Below, one piece after another: positions 2,337 through 31,586 of a stretch of DNA of 47,353 nucleotides. The stretch lies in the NCBI GenBank assembly GCA_028345295.1, contig JAOMDA010000010.1, forward strand, positions 1 through 47,353, given 5' to 3'. Origin of the DNA: Candidatus Nitrosopelagicus sp. GTDB lineage: Archaea; Thermoproteota; Nitrososphaeria; Nitrososphaerales; Nitrosopumilaceae. Each line of letters opens with the position of its first letter. Position 1 is the stretch's first letter. Under the pieces are notes generated by a model, which was given only the letters and a program-made list of their open reading frames with translations, did no database searches and was not told where the DNA came from. A program made the translations under genes and the position numbers.

Positions 2337-3263
2337 TTAGTTTTCTATTACCAATTCTTTTGATTTCTTAAATACTCGGCATAAATTCCTGATAGTCACA
2401 CTACTAATTTCAGAAGCATTTGCTACTTGTGTTTGAGTGATTTTCTGATTATTTGATATTGCAGAAAGATAAATTACTGTTGCAGCAATTGCCATTGGGT
2501 TTTTACCACTAGTGACCATTAATGATTCTGCTTTTATCAAGATCTTTATAGCATCTCTTTTTGTTTTTTCGTTAACGTTTAATGTGCTTGAAATTCTTGA
2601 AATGAATTCAATTGGATTATACGTCTCTACTTTAAGATCTAGTTGTCTAACTAGTAATCTATACATTCTGTGTATTGTTGTTCTTTTGATATTGGTTGCA
2701 TTTGCTACATCTTGAATTGTTCTGGGGGTATTAGTAAACCTACATGCTGCATAAACTGATGCACTCATTATCACTGGAATACTTCGGCCACGTCCAATCT
2801 TTTTACCCAATGCTTTTCGATAAATATAGGCAGACTTTTCTACAGATGCCTCAGTCAATGATAATTTAGCTTTTAATCCCTCTAAAACTGTGAACGCTTT
2901 TTGCATATTTCTCTGACCTGGACGGGCCTTGCTATTTCTATCCCACATTCTTAGTCTGTAAAATGTTCTTTTCATTTCACCTGAAAGACCTTTTCCAGTT
3001 GAATCTTTGTCTGCTTGTTGAATTACTGTTGAAAGTCCCATATCGTTAAATGCTAATGTTGATTTTCTACCAACTCTTGATCTACCTAAATAATCTTCAG
3101 ACGAATGTAATGAATACTCTGCGCCACTATCCTCTAATCTTTCAGTCAGAACATGACCACAATTTGCACACATTATTTCCCCAGTATTAGTATCTGTAAT
3201 CAGTGAAATTTTTGTTGATTTGTTACTTGAACACTCGTGTGCAAATTCATTAGTAGATTTCAT
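2337..3263 (-). CDS. tfb: Transcription initiation factor IIB (TFB)
   Basis: A 308-aa TFB. TFB bridges the TATA-binding protein and RNA polymerase and sets transcription direction by reading the BRE. Two cyclin-like repeats fill roughly residues 110-300, with a B-reader/linker-like stretch before them (GRSRVGRKSTLAFNDMGLSTVI). The N-terminal zinc ribbon is unusual: the second pair C32-A-N-C35 is present, but instead of a first CxxC pair only C11 and a nearby H9 are seen. Archaea of this group have several TFB copies, so this may be a specialised one (inference). A TATA-like element is at 3283-3291 and a recurring TTGGCACTA element is at 3304-3312, 41 nt before the ATG. Confidence 0.96.
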   Translation of the reverse strand: MKSTNEFAHECSSNKSTKISLITDTNTGEIMCANCGHVLTERLEDSGAEYSLHSSEDYLGRSRVGRKSTLAFNDMGLSTVIQQADKDSTGKGLSGEMKRTFYRLRMWDRNSKARPGQRNMQKAFTVLEGLKAKLSLTEASVEKSAYIYRKALGKKIGRGRSIPVIMSASVYAACRFTNTPRTIQDVANATNIKRTTIHRMYRLLVRQLDLKVETYNPIEFISRISSTLNVNEKTKRDAIKILIKAESLMVTSGKNPMAIAATVIYLSAISNNQKITQTQVANASEISSVTIRNLCRVFKKSKELVIEN

Positions 3264-3303
3264 GAATGATTATGGTTATTTTGAATTAATTAGGAATGTT
3301 ATC

Positions 3304-3312
3304 TAGTGCCAA
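3304..3312 (-). promoter_or_regulatory. Recurring TTRGCACTA element upstream of tfb
   Basis: Reads TAGTGCCAA on the + strand. It begins 41 nt upstream of the tfb start and 12 nt beyond its TATA-like box. The same 9-mer, with small variations, recurs upstream of several other genes in the window at 25551, 28170, 30302, 30321 and 31240. It may be a regulator-binding site; the regulator is unknown. Confidence 0.4.
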
Positions 3313-24788: not shown

Positions 24789-25508
24789 TCATTTTCGTAA
24801 TTTACGATATATACCGAATATAATCAATCCTAAAATCCCAATAAAAATTCCAATTGCGATTATAGCAGAAAAGTAGTCATTAACAAATAGTTTTGTTGCT
24901 AACCACGCATAAGGTAAAAGTGTAAAAAAATCATATGCAGAAAAATCTTCAATTGTTCCTATAGCTAATGCATATTTTCCTGGATTTGAGTTTCTGTCAA
25001 AAACTGACAAATAATAAGTTCCGTCAGCAGGTAAATCAAATGTGATTTCTTGTCTTTCCCAATATGTTATTTGCCCAAACGGTTCATAGAATTCCTTTGA
25101 TGGAAAAGACCCAGAATAATCAAAAACATATGCATCAAATCCTTCAGGTAAAGTATATGGGAAATTTTTGTTTGAATTATCAATTTCATATCCTTTAATT
25201 AATTCCAAATGTGATTCGTAACCAATGAATGCAAGTGACGGAGAAAAATTTTTGAGTGTTTCAATTTTTGGAATTACAATACTTGCAAAAAACATATCCC
25301 CTTTTTTTCCATCAAATGTGTAATACAATTCATTGTCATTAATCTCTTCATAGACAGCCCATGATATCTTATGATCACTGATCATTAACCCATTTTCTAA
25401 TGAATTATTTGAACCATTTGTAGGAATAAGTTTATGAGCAAATGCTGTTGATGGAATGAACACTAATATTCCAATTACCAGAATTAATACTGGAATTTTT
25501 TTATTCAT
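24789..25508 (-). CDS. Exported protein with C-terminal membrane anchor
   Basis: A 239-aa protein from the ATG at 25508, which sits 27 nt from a TATA (25532-25539); an ATG two codons earlier also exists. Residues 1-24 are a signal peptide ending in STAFAHK. The outer domain is beta-rich, with TYYLSVFDRNSNPGKYALAIG like pre-peptidase C-terminal or carbohydrate-type beta sandwiches. A membrane helix near the end (FSAIIAIGIFIGILGLIIFG) and a basic tail anchor it. Function unknown. A recurring TTAGCACTA element lies 43 nt before the start. Confidence 0.78.
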   Translation of the reverse strand: MNKKIPVLILVIGILVFIPSTAFAHKLIPTNGSNNSLENGLMISDHKISWAVYEEINDNELYYTFDGKKGDMFFASIVIPKIETLKNFSPSLAFIGYESHLELIKGYEIDNSNKNFPYTLPEGFDAYVFDYSGSFPSKEFYEPFGQITYWERQEITFDLPADGTYYLSVFDRNSNPGKYALAIGTIEDFSAYDFFTLLPYAWLATKLFVNDYFSAIIAIGIFIGILGLIIFGIYRKLRK

Positions 25509-25550
25509 TATCATAATTATACTGCTAGATAATATAATGTAGAAAGATCA

Positions 25551-25559
25551 TAGTGCTAA
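25551..25559 (-). promoter_or_regulatory. Recurring TTAGCACTA element
   Basis: Reads TAGTGCTAA on plus. It lies 12 nt beyond the TATA of the exported-protein gene on the minus strand, the same spacing as at the tfb site (3304), and also about 25 nt upstream of the TATA (TTATTATATATTC, 25578-25590) of the divergent gene at 25610. It could act on either. Confidence 0.45.
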
Positions 25560-25609
25560 CTTTGATTCAGAGATTTCTTTATTATATATTCAAAAAATGA
25601 ATTTCTCAT

Positions 25610-25946: not shown

Positions 25947-26720
25947 TTAAGCCCAACACACCAATGCTTGTTCATTAGTTGGGGCAAAAAAGAATCCTGT
26001 ACTTATCCTATCATGCTTTCCTTTGATTTTAGAAATTGTGTGGTAATGAATTGGATTTATGATTATTACGTCACCTATTTCAGGCTTAATTTTTATAGAT
26101 GTTATATCATGGACAACTTTTTCTGAATAACCAAAATATGGTGATCTATACTTTTCATCGTCACTAGTCCAAATTTTTCTATATAAAATTAATTCACCAC
26201 CATATTCAGCCTTCTGTAAATGTAACACAGCAGAAAATTGCAATGGAAACTTTGATACTTGATAACCTACTGCTTCATAATATGCAGAGTCCCTATGAAT
26301 TTTGAATGATTCATCAGATCCATGAAATCTAAAAACACCTTTAGAATAATTTAAGTTATTTTCCTTTGCAACTCTAGTTTCCATTGTAAACACAGTTGAC
26401 AGTAAATTCTGCATTAGGATTCTCGGATCTTCATTATATGAAAAATACTGCTCAAGTTTTTTATCTATGAATTTAGTTTTTTCAAAATATGCACCTTTTT
26501 TATTAATGAATGAATTCAAAGACACACCTATTTTCTTTTCAATTCCTGGACCACTGGAAATGTAATTGAAGCCTAAAATTTTTTCAGTGATTTTCTTACA
26601 AGTTTTCAGTGAAAATGCTTTCTTAAGAATTAATGCTGGAATATTCCCACTAGATAATTCATTAATAAATTCGAATTTTTGGTTTTTATTTAGATAAATT
26701 GGTGCCCACTGCTTAACCAA
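25947..26720 (-). CDS. 2-oxoglutarate/Fe(II)-dependent oxygenase-like protein
   Basis: A 257-aa protein with the double-stranded beta-helix facial triad: H142-R-D144 (SFKIHRDSAYYE), a distal His in IINPIHYHTIS (H225 or H227), and R238 (HDRISTGFFF), which would hold 2-oxoglutarate. LHLQKAEYGGELILY between them is typical of the prolyl-4-hydroxylase-like class. The substrate is unknown. Start is TTG directly after the stop of the preceding gene, so the pair is coupled. No signal peptide, so it acts in the cytoplasm. Confidence 0.82.
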   Translation of the reverse strand: MVKQWAPIYLNKNQKFEFINELSSGNIPALILKKAFSLKTCKKITEKILGFNYISSGPGIEKKIGVSLNSFINKKGAYFEKTKFIDKKLEQYFSYNEDPRILMQNLLSTVFTMETRVAKENNLNYSKGVFRFHGSDESFKIHRDSAYYEAVGYQVSKFPLQFSAVLHLQKAEYGGELILYRKIWTSDDEKYRSPYFGYSEKVVHDITSIKIKPEIGDVIIINPIHYHTISKIKGKHDRISTGFFFAPTNEQALVCWA

Positions 26721-27029: not shown

Positions 27030-28004
27030 TTAAGGAACTACTACAAGTTTCAACGGTAAATCAATACTACCGAATGGTTCTTGAATTCTTAATGAATACT
27101 CCTTTCCAGAGTCATACAAAAAGTCCTCATAACTACCGTAACCTATTGCAGGGCCCCATAAAATATTTAGAAATCTATTTTGCCCTTCTTTGAGAACAAC
27201 ATTTCCTGATGTAAAGTCTGAACCAGAATTAACCCATTTATGATCACCGTCCCATACGTTATAGTTACAGAGAGATGGACTGGTACATGTCATTGTTACA
27301 TTACTAGATGAACCTGTATTTTCAGCTAAAAGTTTGAGATTAAGTAGAGCTTGTCCAGTGGCAGTATAAGAAATATTATTGTACTGCTTTAGAACACCTT
27401 TAGTTTCTTCCTGCCAATCTGGTGCATAATAATATGTAATTGGACCTACTTGAAATGATGTACTGTTAGATTTGTATTGTTTAAGATTATAATCTTCTTT
27501 TATTGCCTTTTCACAATCCCTGACTAATCTTGGATTTTCTTCACTTTGACATACTACAAGCATTTGATCTAATGAATCATCTCCAGTTTTGTTAACGGTA
27601 CTTGACGATTGAGTTTTTGGTTCTTGATATTGTGATTGTTGACTCATATCGTCACCTACAGAACCTGCACTAACACTCATAATTCCAGTTTTTATCAAGT
27701 ATTGTATTGCATTGATGAAGTCATTCTCTGATATTTCATCATTTGACCACCACCCCGCTGTATTCTTTACCCAATCTGGTATACTATCAGAAGTTGATGC
27801 ACTACGTGTTGTAGATGGAACCGTGATTATTCCCTCCTCAATTAGAAATTGTATTCCAGAGACAAATGCTTGATTATCTATCTGACCACTTGACCACCAA
27901 CCTGCATTATTTTTTACCCAATCTGGAACATTAGCAGCATCAGCATAACCAATTAATGAGGTCAAGATAACTACGCTTGCCAATATGCCGATAATTTTAG
28001 CCAA
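27030..28004 (-). CDS. Secreted protein with two PDWVKN...GWW repeats
   Basis: A 324-aa exported protein starting at TTG. Residues 1-24 are a signal peptide (IIGILASVVILTSLIGYADA). Two copies of a short domain follow, VPDWVKNNAGWWSSGQID (from 26) and IPDWVKNTAGWWSNDEIS (from 75), each with an FxxxIQ(F/Y)LI..GI tail. A Ser/Gln-rich linker leads to a beta-rich domain (residues about 145-324) with C154, C163, and C273/C279-region cysteines. The repeat is frequent in this archaeal group and may mediate surface attachment; this is an inference. The TTG overlaps the end of a 40-codon ORF, which suggests coupled translation. Confidence 0.85.
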   Translation of the reverse strand: MAKIIGILASVVILTSLIGYADAANVPDWVKNNAGWWSSGQIDNQAFVSGIQFLIEEGIITVPSTTRSASTSDSIPDWVKNTAGWWSNDEISENDFINAIQYLIKTGIMSVSAGSVGDDMSQQSQYQEPKTQSSSTVNKTGDDSLDQMLVVCQSEENPRLVRDCEKAIKEDYNLKQYKSNSTSFQVGPITYYYAPDWQEETKGVLKQYNNISYTATGQALLNLKLLAENTGSSSNVTMTCTSPSLCNYNVWDGDHKWVNSGSDFTSGNVVLKEGQNRFLNILWGPAIGYGSYEDFLYDSGKEYSLRIQEPFGSIDLPLKLVVVP

Positions 28005-28150: not shown

Positions 28151-28178
28151 AAGTGCCCATTTTTTTATCTAGTGCTAA
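28151..28178 (-). promoter_or_regulatory. Paired TTRGCACTA-like elements, 19-bp spacing
   Basis: On plus: AAGTGCCCA at 28151-28159 and TAGTGCTAA at 28170-28178, separated by a T-rich spacer ending ATC. The proximal copy is 3 nt from the TATA box of the ORF at 28119. The same 19-bp arrangement occurs at 30302/30321. About two helical turns apart, so a dimer or tandem binder could contact one DNA face. The remainder of 28004-28228 shows nothing else. Confidence 0.5.
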
Positions 28179-28227: not shown

Positions 28228-28665
28228 ATGGTAAAATTTGAATTCATAAAGATTGTAAATATAGATAGAGATTTAATTTTTGAAATTAGTACAAAATACA
28301 AAAATTTTACAAAAATACTTCCTGATTACTTTAAAAAATTAGAAATACTTGAAAAAAATGAAAATAGCACAAAAATTTCCGAGACAATAAATTTTTTGGG
28401 TCGAACCACAACTGTTCTGACAAAACATGTTGTAATAAAGCCAGATCGACATATAGTAACAATGCTTGATGGATCAGCTAAAGGAAGTAATTTTGATGAA
28501 ATATATGAGAAGGTTGGTACTCAAACTAAAATTACAATTAAGGTGGATTTCATATTACATGGGAGTTTGAAATTACTTGGATTCTTTGTAAAAGGAAAAA
28601 TTAAAACACAGATGGATAATGTAATGAATGAATTTGTAGATTATGCTAAGAAAAATTCAAATTAA
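28228..28665 (+). CDS. SRPBCC (START-like) family protein
   Basis: A 145-aa protein beginning MVKFEFIKIVNIDRDLIFEI, with YKNFTKILPDYFKKLEILEK, paralogous to the protein at 20794-21234 (MPKITFEKIINADAQ...; FENILPEFYSSI). The SRPBCC fold forms a deep pocket for lipids or other hydrophobic ligands. The ligand here is not known. It is convergent with the flavoprotein gene with no gap. Confidence 0.85.
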   Translation: MVKFEFIKIVNIDRDLIFEISTKYKNFTKILPDYFKKLEILEKNENSTKISETINFLGRTTTVLTKHVVIKPDRHIVTMLDGSAKGSNFDEIYEKVGTQTKITIKVDFILHGSLKLLGFFVKGKIKTQMDNVMNEFVDYAKKNSN

Positions 28666-30003
28666 TTATTTTGATAAATACTCCATAATTTTTGGATGAG
28701 CTAAAATTGAACTATGGGCGGCAGAATCAGTACCTATACCATAACTGATAGTTGAATCTCCAACAAAAAATAATCCGTCTACATTTTCAACTGAATGAGG
28801 CATTTTATTTTTCCAAACTAAACCTGGTTCTTTGACTACTGCCTCAACTAGTTTCCATGCCATTGCACGCTCCCAAAGTAGGGCTGAATCAAACTCAGGA
28901 TATATTTCAGAAAGTTCTTGTTTCATCTGTGTTACAATCTCTTTAATTCGTAATGGATTGTCAGTTTCTTCTGGTTTTATTGGTGTTCCCACAATTAACA
29001 GATGTTCTCCAGGTGGAGATACCGATGGAGTGATATTAGAAATAAAGAATATTCCTTTCGATGCATAATCCTTTCCCACTGGAAAAACAACTTGTCTAGA
29101 ATCAATTTTTTTCGATAATGCAAAATGAACCTCTACGACTGATGTTGTTTTATCAAGCCTGTTAATCTTCTTAATGAATTCATTATCAAAAATTCCATCA
29201 TCAAACAATTGATTTATTGCGTGATACGCAGGATAAGATACAATTACACAGTCAGTTTCCATTAATGTATCATCATTCAATATTATGCCGTTAACTTTAC
29301 CATCTGAAATTGAAATTTTTTTAATTGGTTTTTCCAGATGAACCCCAGACTTAGTTTCTCTTATGTAATCTGCCATTACTTGTGATATTCTATCATAACC
29401 ACCCATGTCAGGGTAGGCAAATTCGCTTGTGCCACCCTTAAATGGATTTGCTCTAATTATGGTTCTTGCAAATTCACCAAGTGATATATGATCTGGAGTG
29501 TCAGCAAATGCTAACATGCAAACTGCATCAAAAAAACGCTTTGAGTGATAATCTAACTTTCTTGTAACCTCAGTTAATGGTATCTTATCAAGTTCTTCTG
29601 TTTTCTCCATACTGGTAAATGCCATTGGTAATAAAATTTTGAGTAATGATAGTCTGCTTTTAAATGGAATCAATGACATTTGAAGAATATCTGTAATGCC
29701 TTTTGGGTATTTATGGAAACCTGCACCATCATAAAATGCAATATCACTAACTATAGCTAACTTTAATCTTGATTCTATATTTGCCTCTTTCATTACATCA
29801 TATATTGCAGATTTTTTATAGAATGGCATAATATGGAATCCATTATCTAAAATATGGTTTCTGTAAGTTACTGATGATGTTCTACCTCCTACCTTTTTGC
29901 TTTTTTCAAAAATTTCTACTTTAATATCCCTATTTACTAAAAGTACACCTGTTGATAGTCCACCTATCCCTGCACCTATAATTACAACTGGTTTGTTACT
30001 CAT
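28666..30003 (-). CDS. FAD-dependent oxidoreductase, phytoene-desaturase-like
   Basis: A 445-aa flavoprotein from ATG 30003 (TATA at about 30030-30040; the frame also opens at 30024). The N-terminus VVIIGAGIGGLSTGVLL and EIFEKSKKVGGRTSS form the FAD-binding Rossmann motif and the GGR loop; the C-terminus GLFFVGDSTISYGIGTDSAAHSS closes the FAD site. The family includes CrtI-type carotenoid desaturases, protoporphyrinogen oxidase and other amine oxidase-like enzymes. Which substrate applies cannot be told from sequence. A carotenoid role would fit the B12 light-sensor-like gene 340 bp upstream (inference). Confidence 0.85.
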   Translation of the reverse strand: MSNKPVVIIGAGIGGLSTGVLLVNRDIKVEIFEKSKKVGGRTSSVTYRNHILDNGFHIMPFYKKSAIYDVMKEANIESRLKLAIVSDIAFYDGAGFHKYPKGITDILQMSLIPFKSRLSLLKILLPMAFTSMEKTEELDKIPLTEVTRKLDYHSKRFFDAVCMLAFADTPDHISLGEFARTIIRANPFKGGTSEFAYPDMGGYDRISQVMADYIRETKSGVHLEKPIKKISISDGKVNGIILNDDTLMETDCVIVSYPAYHAINQLFDDGIFDNEFIKKINRLDKTTSVVEVHFALSKKIDSRQVVFPVGKDYASKGIFFISNITPSVSPPGEHLLIVGTPIKPEETDNPLRIKEIVTQMKQELSEIYPEFDSALLWERAMAWKLVEAVVKEPGLVWKNKMPHSVENVDGLFFVGDSTISYGIGTDSAAHSSILAHPKIMEYLSK

Positions 30004-30033
30004 TATGTAAAATAATCCTGGCATGAATTAATT

Positions 30034-30270
30034 TTATGCGATAGAAAAATTTGTCCCGTTAAAATCATCAGTATCATTATCAGAATAGAGTCTTTTCTTA
30101 TTCCTTGCCTTTGTTCTTAATATCATCCTACAACATGGACAACGAATTTCTTCAGTTGACAAAAACACTTCACACCAACTACATCTTTTCAATCCATATT
30201 CGTATTTCTTTGAATTTGGAATTGGACTATGCTTCATTTGTGCGCAAATTCCTTTGCATGATGCTCCCAT
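30034..30270 (-). CDS. Small Cys-rich zinc-binding protein (78 aa)
   Basis: A 78-aa protein with C5 and C9 (CKGIC), C30-x-x-C33 (CSWC), and C44-x-x-C47-C48 (CPCC). The last two pairs make a rubredoxin-like zinc ribbon (KRCSWCEVFLSTEEIRCPCCRM). The tail is basic, then acidic. Regulation or nucleic-acid binding is plausible; the function is unknown. Its TATA (30291-30297) is preceded by two TTRGCACTA-type elements at 30302 and 30321. Confidence 0.82.
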   Translation of the reverse strand: MGASCKGICAQMKHSPIPNSKKYEYGLKRCSWCEVFLSTEEIRCPCCRMILRTKARNKKRLYSDNDTDDFNGTNFSIA

Positions 30271-30301: not shown

Positions 30302-30329
30302 TAGTGTTAATTTTAATATCTAGTGCCAA
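30302..30329 (-). promoter_or_regulatory. Paired TTRGCACTA-like elements, 19-bp spacing
   Basis: On plus: TAGTGTTAA at 30302-30310 and TAGTGCCAA at 30321-30329. The proximal copy begins 32 nt before the zinc-protein ATG and 4 nt from its TATA box. The same arrangement is seen at 28151/28170. Confidence 0.5.
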
Positions 30330-30343
30330 TTTTCTTAACTATG

Positions 30344-31201
30344 TTATTTCTTTTTTCTTGTTTTCATAATCCTAGGTAAATGTGTTAATGAATTAATGTC
30401 GTCTATCACGTTTGCATCAAACTTAGCCTTAGAACCATCTTTGAATGCTTGCCCACCTACATATATTGGAATTTTCTTACTGAACTCTCTAATTTTTTTA
30501 GTCAATCTTTGACCTGATGGAATACTATCAGGTAATGTAATTGAGATAATTATTGCATCAGGAGTGATACTTCTCATAAAATTTAAAACAGATTCAGCTG
30601 GTGTTGATGGTGACAAATTAAATGTTGTAAACCCCTTATTTAGTAAAAATGATTCCATAACACTACAACCAAGATTGTGCTCCTCCCCCACAGGTGTCGT
30701 TAAAATTATTTTACCATGTAATGATCTTCCCTTTTTTTCTTCTGAAATTATTTTTACAAGACTATGAGCAATATTACTTGAGACATGTTCAGTTGCTACA
30801 GAAAGAATTCCATTTGACCACATCGTACCTATTTTTTCCATTACAGGATTTAGGATTTTTTCATAAAACTGATCTAATGAATTATCGTTTAAAAATGCAC
30901 GATAAGTTTTTTTTGCTCCATCTAAATCGCCTTCTGTTAAACATGAAAAAATTTGTAGTTGTAATTTTTCTATTATTTTCTCTCTTTTCTCTCTATCCTT
31001 TGGGGTATTTTCTAATAGGAATGCCTGTATTTTAGGATCATTTCTATATTCTTCTGGTATATCTTCTTGTGTTACATTGTTAATTGCACCTAAATACTTG
31101 ATAGTTTCCTGCCTAGACGTTTTGTGAATCTTATCCCATGTACTTTTTACTAAATATAAGTAATCAACATTCTTTACATTCTTTTTTCTAATGTAAACCA
31201 A
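30344..31201 (-). CDS. B12-binding protein with CarH-type W-x9-EH motif
   Basis: A 285-aa protein starting at TTG. Residues 76-155 are a helical cap domain (B12-binding_2) containing W128-SNGILSVAT-E138-H139, the W-x9-EH motif that marks CarH/LitR adenosylcobalamin photoreceptors. Residues 162-275 are a Rossmann B12 fold with VGEEHNLG, i.e. E173-x-H175-x-x-G178 in place of the usual DxHxxG; H175 would be the lower cobalt ligand. The N-terminal 75 residues (VDYLYLVKSTWDKIHKTSRQETIKYLG) are not the MerR helix-turn-helix of CarH. The His that follows the Trp in Thermus CarH is Ser here. Light or cobalamin sensing is inferred. A TTAGCACTA element abuts its TATA box. Confidence 0.8.
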   Translation of the reverse strand: MVYIRKKNVKNVDYLYLVKSTWDKIHKTSRQETIKYLGAINNVTQEDIPEEYRNDPKIQAFLLENTPKDREKREKIIEKLQLQIFSCLTEGDLDGAKKTYRAFLNDNSLDQFYEKILNPVMEKIGTMWSNGILSVATEHVSSNIAHSLVKIISEEKKGRSLHGKIILTTPVGEEHNLGCSVMESFLLNKGFTTFNLSPSTPAESVLNFMRSITPDAIIISITLPDSIPSGQRLTKKIREFSKKIPIYVGGQAFKDGSKAKFDANVIDDINSLTHLPRIMKTRKKK

Positions 31202-31239
31202 TATTGTTTTTAAGATTAGTAATGCCTAATAAACATTTA

Positions 31240-31248
31240 TAGTGCTAA
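31240..31248 (-). promoter_or_regulatory. TTAGCACTA element abutting TATA of the B12 gene
   Basis: Reads TAGTGCTAA on plus and overlaps the upstream edge of a TATA (ATAAATGT, 31233-31240). It lies 39 nt before the TTG at 31201. A degenerate companion (TAATGCCTAA, 31220-31229) lies 20 bp nearer. Confidence 0.45.
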
Positions 31249-31304
31249 CTTTTAGTGAAATTAGTAAAATCAGACATATTTGTATATTGATTATAAAATA
31301 AATT

Positions 31305-31586
31305 CTAAAATATTTTTAATTTCTCTAATACAATCTTAAAAATTTCATCATTATCAAGCAATATACATGGTAGATTATTTTCTTCACATGCTTGACCACT
31401 TTCAGTATCACGTGTTACCAAAATCATATCATGCTCCCTAGCATAATTAATGACAGAATAATCTGCATTGAGTTTTTTCCCATCTGCACGTAATTTCTTT
31501 ACGCTAAATGCATCATAACCCAATTCACGTAATTTTTTATCCATCCCATCATCCATCTCATCAATTAGAATTTTTTTTCTAATCAT
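31305..31586 (-). CDS. PIN-like DUF5615-type protein
   Basis: A 93-aa protein with the layout of DUF5615/Mut7-C PIN-like nucleases: KILIDEMDDGMDKKLRELGY (acidic residues on strand 1), NADYSVINYAREHDMILVTRD (second acidic centre), then LLDNDEI. These domains often act as RNases, sometimes as toxins with a partner. No antitoxin-like gene is next to it: the upstream neighbour looks like a roadblock-type protein. Assignment by motif; function uncertain. Confidence 0.72.
   Translation of the reverse strand: MIRKKILIDEMDDGMDKKLRELGYDAFSVKKLRADGKKLNADYSVINYAREHDMILVTRDTESGQACEENNLPCILLDNDEIFKIVLEKLKIF

Follow-up and report, generated by a model that had tools for sequence, protein, structure and literature searches.

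The putative regulator gene and its predicted cobalamin-binding module

The window, by which we mean the whole stretch of 47,353 nucleotides analysed here, belongs to a genome of 1.07 Mb in 24 contigs that is 92% complete. It carries on the minus strand, at 30344-31201, a gene with a TTG start encoding a protein of 285 residues, which domain, family, PDB and fold searches identify as a CarH-like B12-binding protein, and which we interpret as a one-component regulator. The reading frame that an earlier note on this DNA had described exists as claimed, and the two motifs on which that note was built, W128-x9-E138-H139 and E-x-H175-x-x-G, were located in it (W128 at 30818-30820, E138-H139 at 30785-30790 and H175 at 30677-30679). 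Three parts can be distinguished, all encoded on the minus strand: an N-terminal domain (residues 1-66; 31004-31201), delimited by a structural model and a sequence profile, which is a putative DNA-binding head; a B12-binding_2 four-helix cap containing W128, E138 and H139 (residues 83-152; 30746-30955; Pfam, 1.8e-10); and a B12-binding Rossmann domain (residues 163-254; 30440-30715; Pfam, 2e-9), with the predicted lower ligand H175 in the motif E173-x-H175-x-x-G178. The limits of the last two domains are supported by Pfam, alignment and model, whereas the DNA binding of the first is inferred.

The best curated family is the CarH model of NCBIfam (2.1e-21), which matches residues 77-273, i.e. 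the B12 module only, and the next-ranked corrinoid family reaches 1.4e-9, but the score remains far below the CarH equivalog cut-off (76 bits versus 400). Thermus CarH heads the PDB sequence matches (3e-15), and the closest named relatives are found in Candidatus Nitrosopelagicus and other marine thaumarchaeal genomes. Structure prediction, which had been proposed as a check, gave an alignment-based AlphaFold model (pLDDT 88.5) with an N-terminal three-stranded antiparallel sheet and a helix, followed by the four-helix cap and the Rossmann domain, and a Foldseek search with this model retrieved a photocobilin first (1e-13) and CarH (1e-12, TM by target ~0.83). Pfam, AlphaFold and Foldseek are thus consistent in that the cap and Rossmann B12 module of CarH/LitR is present.

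The likeness to CarH and class I LitR proteins, e.g. that of Thermus thermophilus, includes the cap and Rossmann fold and the W-x9-EH and E-x-H lower-ligand motifs. The gene's own promoter also holds tandem repeats, a putative operator, but with starts 19 bp apart. In Thermus CarH the residues matching W128 and E138 hold the adenosyl group, and the lower ligand, His177, matches H175 (PMC10442372). In contrast, the upper ligand His132 of Thermus CarH is absent, its place being taken by S129, and so is the Arg176-Asp201 pair of the Thermus dimer (PMC10442372), which aligns with E174 and S199. The MerR helix-turn-helix of CarH is also missing. The photocobilins SasPcob and AbPcob, the best structural match, share the W...EH and E/DxH motifs, but the present protein has no globin/bilin domain and carries a DNA-binding-like head instead.

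Conservation of the pocket and the N-terminal domain

We surveyed 250 genomes of the archaeon's family, counting as members those proteins with an E-value below 1e-30 and taking weaker matches as other B12 proteins; by this definition about 122 of the 250 (a count made from the table) carry the regulator or a paralogue. Sixty-six members were aligned, 54 from the main orthologue clade and 12 from a paralogue clade. In the main clade W128, E138, H139, S142, N143, E173, H175 and G190 do not vary (54/54), so that the light-sensor reading survived the alignment named beforehand as able to refute it, namely one in which W128 or E138-H139 is not conserved. Beyond this family, all eight full-length members found in two other families of ammonia-oxidising archaea (AOA), which belong to the same order, keep the W-x9-EH motif, read by eye, and have the same domain arrangement. 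The earlier observation of a Ser following the Trp, where Thermus CarH has a His, holds for the whole aligned family, which never has His at position 129 but Ala, Ser or another residue. The three adenosyl-pocket residues W, E and H have been lost jointly in the paralogue clade, while H175 is kept in 11 of 12 members, and one member is no longer matched by the cap-domain model. It should be kept in mind that many of the genomes are MAGs and that they are closely related by descent.

Several further features of the paralogues were observed. They occur in L039, L041, L042, L055, L056, L061 and L063, among others, and have the N-terminal domain in common with the regulator. A number of their genes adjoin a photolyase, a DICT-domain protein and a MEDS/winged-helix pair, and a different conserved motif, GGTACTCAtcaAGGTGCGTAAT, is present upstream.

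The N-terminal region of about 75 residues had been described as a replacement for the MerR domain, with a profile search proposed to identify it. This description stands: the search matched no Pfam family, MerR included, there was no PDB sequence match, and the model shows strands at residues 2-9, 12-23 and 28-39 and a helix at 56-65. A single-sequence prediction of the domain was helical (pLDDT 66), in conflict with the alignment-based model, and was discarded. When a profile of the domain was run against a sample of 398 genomes from the phylum, proteins built in the same way appeared in the three AOA families, and elsewhere only weak matches were obtained. Four of these were read: two are small stand-alone proteins and two head transposase-like frames, the N-terminal-type region being followed by a DDE_Tnp_1 match in L167 and by a DDE-like part, recognised by eye, in L170. 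Both frames match the pattern YxRxKxVK...YLYLVKS...KxxSxQxxxKYLG of the domain, with weak E-values of about 1e-6 to 1e-9. Since two of the four weak matches head such frames, a transposase-type DNA-binding origin of the domain is suggested by sequence, on weak E-values. The N-terminal domain of such transposases is of the IS4/IS1634-like kind; the regulator lacks their DDE domain. A 74-residue stand-alone copy of the domain, without the B12 module, adjoins an SDR gene at L166:5253-5477 (plus strand); it may be either a regulator that has been cut short or a DNA-binding protein in its own right.

Neighbouring genes and a proposed tandem operator

The regulator gene and several of its neighbours have a tandem operator immediately before the TATA box, with the consensus TTAGCACTA(G/T)-N9-TTAGgCATTA. 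Across species, the promoters of the regulator contain TTAGCACTA, then, 19 bp further on (start to start), TTAGCATTA or TTAGGCATTA, and then a TATA-like box. This arrangement differs from CarH, which uses contiguous 11-bp repeats, and it stands in an archaeal promoter context. In the window, the operator of the regulator (31220-31248, minus strand) is formed by TTAGCACTA at 31240-31248 and TTAGGCATTA at 31220-31229, so that the region 31230-31250, proposed earlier for a DNA-binding test, contains the conserved half-site and has its partner next to it; binding by the regulator is inferred. A second tandem operator (30302-30332, minus strand), composed of AAATTGGCACTA at 30321-30332 and AAATTAACACTA at 30302-30313, lies beside a TATA-like box and precedes, on the same strand, a 78-residue CxxC zinc-ribbon-like protein (30034-30270) and an FAD-dependent amine-oxidase or CrtI-HpnE-like oxidoreductase (28666-30024), the order being the same in the relatives L003 and L004.

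Single sites were found on the minus strand at three further genes, also on the minus strand. A TTAGCACTAG site (28169-28178; TTRGCACTAG in L003 and L004) is upstream of the gene at 27030-28004 for an exported-type protein with WVKNNAGWW repeats, which belongs to a mixed cluster of repeat proteins with the site in 26 of 41 promoters. AAGTTAGCACTA (25551-25562) lies 37 bp upstream of a gene for a membrane or exported protein (24789-25514), a probable regulon member, and TTGGCACTAG (3303-3312) lies 40 bp upstream of a gene for the transcription initiation factor TFB (2337-3263), a possible one; in other genomes, 6 of 13 promoters of TFB genes near the regulator contain the site. Four of the window promoters, i.e. 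those of the regulator, of the zinc-ribbon/FAD pair, and of the genes at 27030-28004 and 24789-25514, keep the site in L003 and L004, and that of the regulator reads TTAGGCACTA in L004.

Because three sites of the window served to define the motif at the start, counts in the window are partly circular, and the independent evidence comes from other genomes and from positions on which no selection was made. Twelve genomes that carry the regulator have 75 exact TTAGCACTAG sites between them, and 38 of these are no more than 20 kb away from its gene, where 1.9 would be expected; roughly ten of the 38 are in its own promoter. The 118 promoter sites of the collected loci have nothing but G or T at position 10, for which they had not been selected, and they show a clear second half-site and a TATA-like block of A/T. 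Of 27 regulator promoters, 20 contain the second half-site (1.4 expected from shuffles), and 18 of these 20 have the spacing of 19. A looser pattern, TTRSCACTAK, gave counts equal to those of a reversed-pattern control, and the statistics were restricted to the stricter forms. The operator is tied to the regulator by genomic association only, with no binding data, and two genomes without the regulator still hold sites (eight in G041 and six in G237). An exact 12-mer site in G000:C18 falls within a reading frame and was put down to chance. An exact copy at G000 contig C4:725-737 (L090), 55 bp upstream of a gene for a 106-residue membrane-anchored protein, was also observed, and this gene is a possible distant regulon member.

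The recurrent neighbours of the regulator are an NmrA-type SDR with a membrane tail, the FAD amine-oxidase-like enzyme, an SRPBCC-like protein, DUF1722, photolyase and TFB, of which Pfam confirms DUF1722, the NmrA-type SDR and photolyase; the SRPBCC-like protein of the window (28228-28665, plus strand) matches Pfam weakly, below the cut-off. The order SDR-regulator-FAD is also found in L159, a genome of another AOA family. Photolyase is present in 53 of the 250 genomes, of which 51 have the regulator family, versus 71 of the 197 without photolyase (p ~1e-16, uncorrected for kinship), and in 23 genomes it lies at most 4 kb from the regulator. Photolyase genes are rarely preceded directly by the site (1/6). 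At DUF1722 promoters the site has the opposite orientation (15/15) and lies within a region common to divergent genes, so its role there is ambiguous. This gene content strongly resembles the light-induced LitR clusters of Pseudomonas, without any claim of common origin. The class II LitR (PplR/PmlR) regulon contains photolyase, SDR, FAD-dependent oxidoreductase and DUF1722 (RudS), with phrB, SDR and FAD oxidoreductase in the pmlR1 cluster (PMC9758184) and the DUF1722-containing RudS in LitR/photolyase operons (PMC11417400). However, class II LitR retains the four-helix bundle alone, probably does not bind B12, receives its signal from a LOV protein, and has a MerR DNA-binding domain.

In the window's own genome (92% complete), neither a photolyase nor an SQS_PSY phytoene/squalene synthase was found. 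Control of carotenoid synthesis as in CarH was rejected for this genome, given the missing SQS_PSY and an FAD neighbour that scores far under the CrtI cut-offs. A comparison of this oxidoreductase with plasmid records returned one distant, uninformative match. Two other minus-strand genes deserve mention. Directly upstream of the regulator, 31305-31586 encodes a DUF5615/Mut7-C PIN-like protein, a relative of which is near the regulator in L003. The gene at 25947-26720 encodes a 2OG-Fe(II) enzyme matching the Pfam halogenase family WelO5 (2e-23). Halogenases carry H-x-G at the position where H-R-D was read by eye in this protein, which on sequence makes it more likely a hydroxylase than a halogenase.

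Proposed function and alternatives

Taken together, the fold, the invariant residues, the photolyase linkage, the operator and a PduO-type cobalamin adenosyltransferase encoded in the window's genome make a variant B12-based light sensor of this ammonia oxidiser, one of the possibilities raised earlier, the best-supported reading, in which light response and B12 binding remain inferred. We consider it likely that the protein is an adenosylcobalamin (AdoCbl)-dependent, light-responsive one-component transcription regulator of AOA with a regulon and an operator, its B12 binding, photochemistry, DNA binding and sign of regulation all being inferences. AdoCbl is a plausible cofactor, judging from the adenosyltransferase gene. 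Because the proximal half-site directly borders the TATA/BRE position, binding would most likely hinder TFB and repress; activation is possible, and on this ground we lean modestly towards repression in the dark. Blue to green light would then cleave the Co-C bond, the helix with E138-H139 would shift, the oligomer would loosen and release the DNA, and a photo-protection regulon would be expressed, predicted in the window to include the regulator, the zinc-ribbon/FAD-oxidoreductase pair, two exported or membrane proteins, and a TFB.

Against a light regulator stands the lack of equivalents of His132 and Arg176-Asp201, and the Thermus H132A variant mostly remains tetrameric in light (PMC10442372). 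SasPcob, on the other hand, photo-converts to a monomeric light state with water- or hydroxide-ligated, not bis-His, cobalamin (PMC10979010). In view of this precedent, the missing His at position 129 would not be fatal to light sensing. With no step measured, AdoCbl photolysis may be expected to give a photocobilin-like light state, probably aqua- or hydroxo-cobalamin, and the oligomer interface to differ from the one in Thermus CarH. Also against this reading, the classic targets photolyase and phytoene synthase are missing in this genome, photolyase genes elsewhere rarely carry the site directly, and sites occur in G041 and G237, which have no regulator.

The S129 substitution and the missing photolyase would suit a light-independent sensor of AdoCbl or B12 status that reports cofactor supply and controls B12-related or redox genes, as would the ability of AOA to synthesise B12 themselves (PMC7554672) and the existence of a paralogue clade whose module has lost the pocket residues. 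We nevertheless regard this as rather unlikely: the neighbours and operator-bearing genes are photolyase, DUF1722, SDR and FAD oxidoreductase rather than genes of B12 synthesis or transport, the regulator family accompanies photolyase in 51 of 53 genomes, and characterised photoreceptors have the same W-x9-EH adenosyl pocket (PMC10979010). An enzymatic role, such as methyl transfer by an MtaC- or MetH-like corrinoid protein that is no regulator, would fit the B12-binding_2 plus B12-binding architecture and the weak matches to MtgC, MtaC and MetH, but seems very improbable given that W-x9-EH, H175 and the best matches point to CarH, the N-terminal domain is conserved and the gene has an operator in its own promoter. 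The specific role of a corrinoid methyltransferase was rejected, as the MtaC and MtgC scores are far below every cut-off and no methyltransferase partner is among the recurrent neighbours.

The operator raises a separate question, since the protein could be a B12 photoreceptor while TTAGCACTA belongs to another factor, e.g. a dedicated TFB or the nearby wHTH/MEDS proteins, and the sheet domain binds RNA or protein. That the second half-site abuts the TATA/BRE position, that a TFB gene itself bears the operator, and that binding data for the regulator are lacking leave room for this. Still, such a division of roles seems rather unlikely beside binding by the regulator itself, around which the sites cluster in 12 genomes; autogenous tandem sites 19 bp apart suit an oligomeric binder, and the N-terminal domain resembles transposase N-termini. 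In our view, the photoreceptor reading can be extended, with even chances of being right, to a lineage in three AOA families that arose when a CarH-type AdoCbl sensor was fused to a DNA-binding domain of transposase type, does not need a bis-His switch, and governs a light-response regulon, with photolyase operons and the general transcription factor TFB among its members, through the 19-bp-spaced tandem operator at archaeal promoters.

A full-text search, limited to open-licence papers, found none describing a B12 light sensor in AOA, and the family appears new as a CarH/LitR-like variant with a new head, although earlier annotation under another name is not excluded. If it is a B12 photoreceptor, CarH-type light sensing would extend to archaea with a new output domain, and would include a light switch for archaeal or eukaryote-like (TATA/TFB) promoters that needs no His ligand. 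The operator and the gene list would be concrete material for testing light control of AOA. These archaea are among the most abundant cells of the ocean, and their inhibition by light has been reported. The regulator would give light-sensitive ocean AOA a route for sensing sunlight, and the sites and neighbours suggest that it may control a response to light damage.
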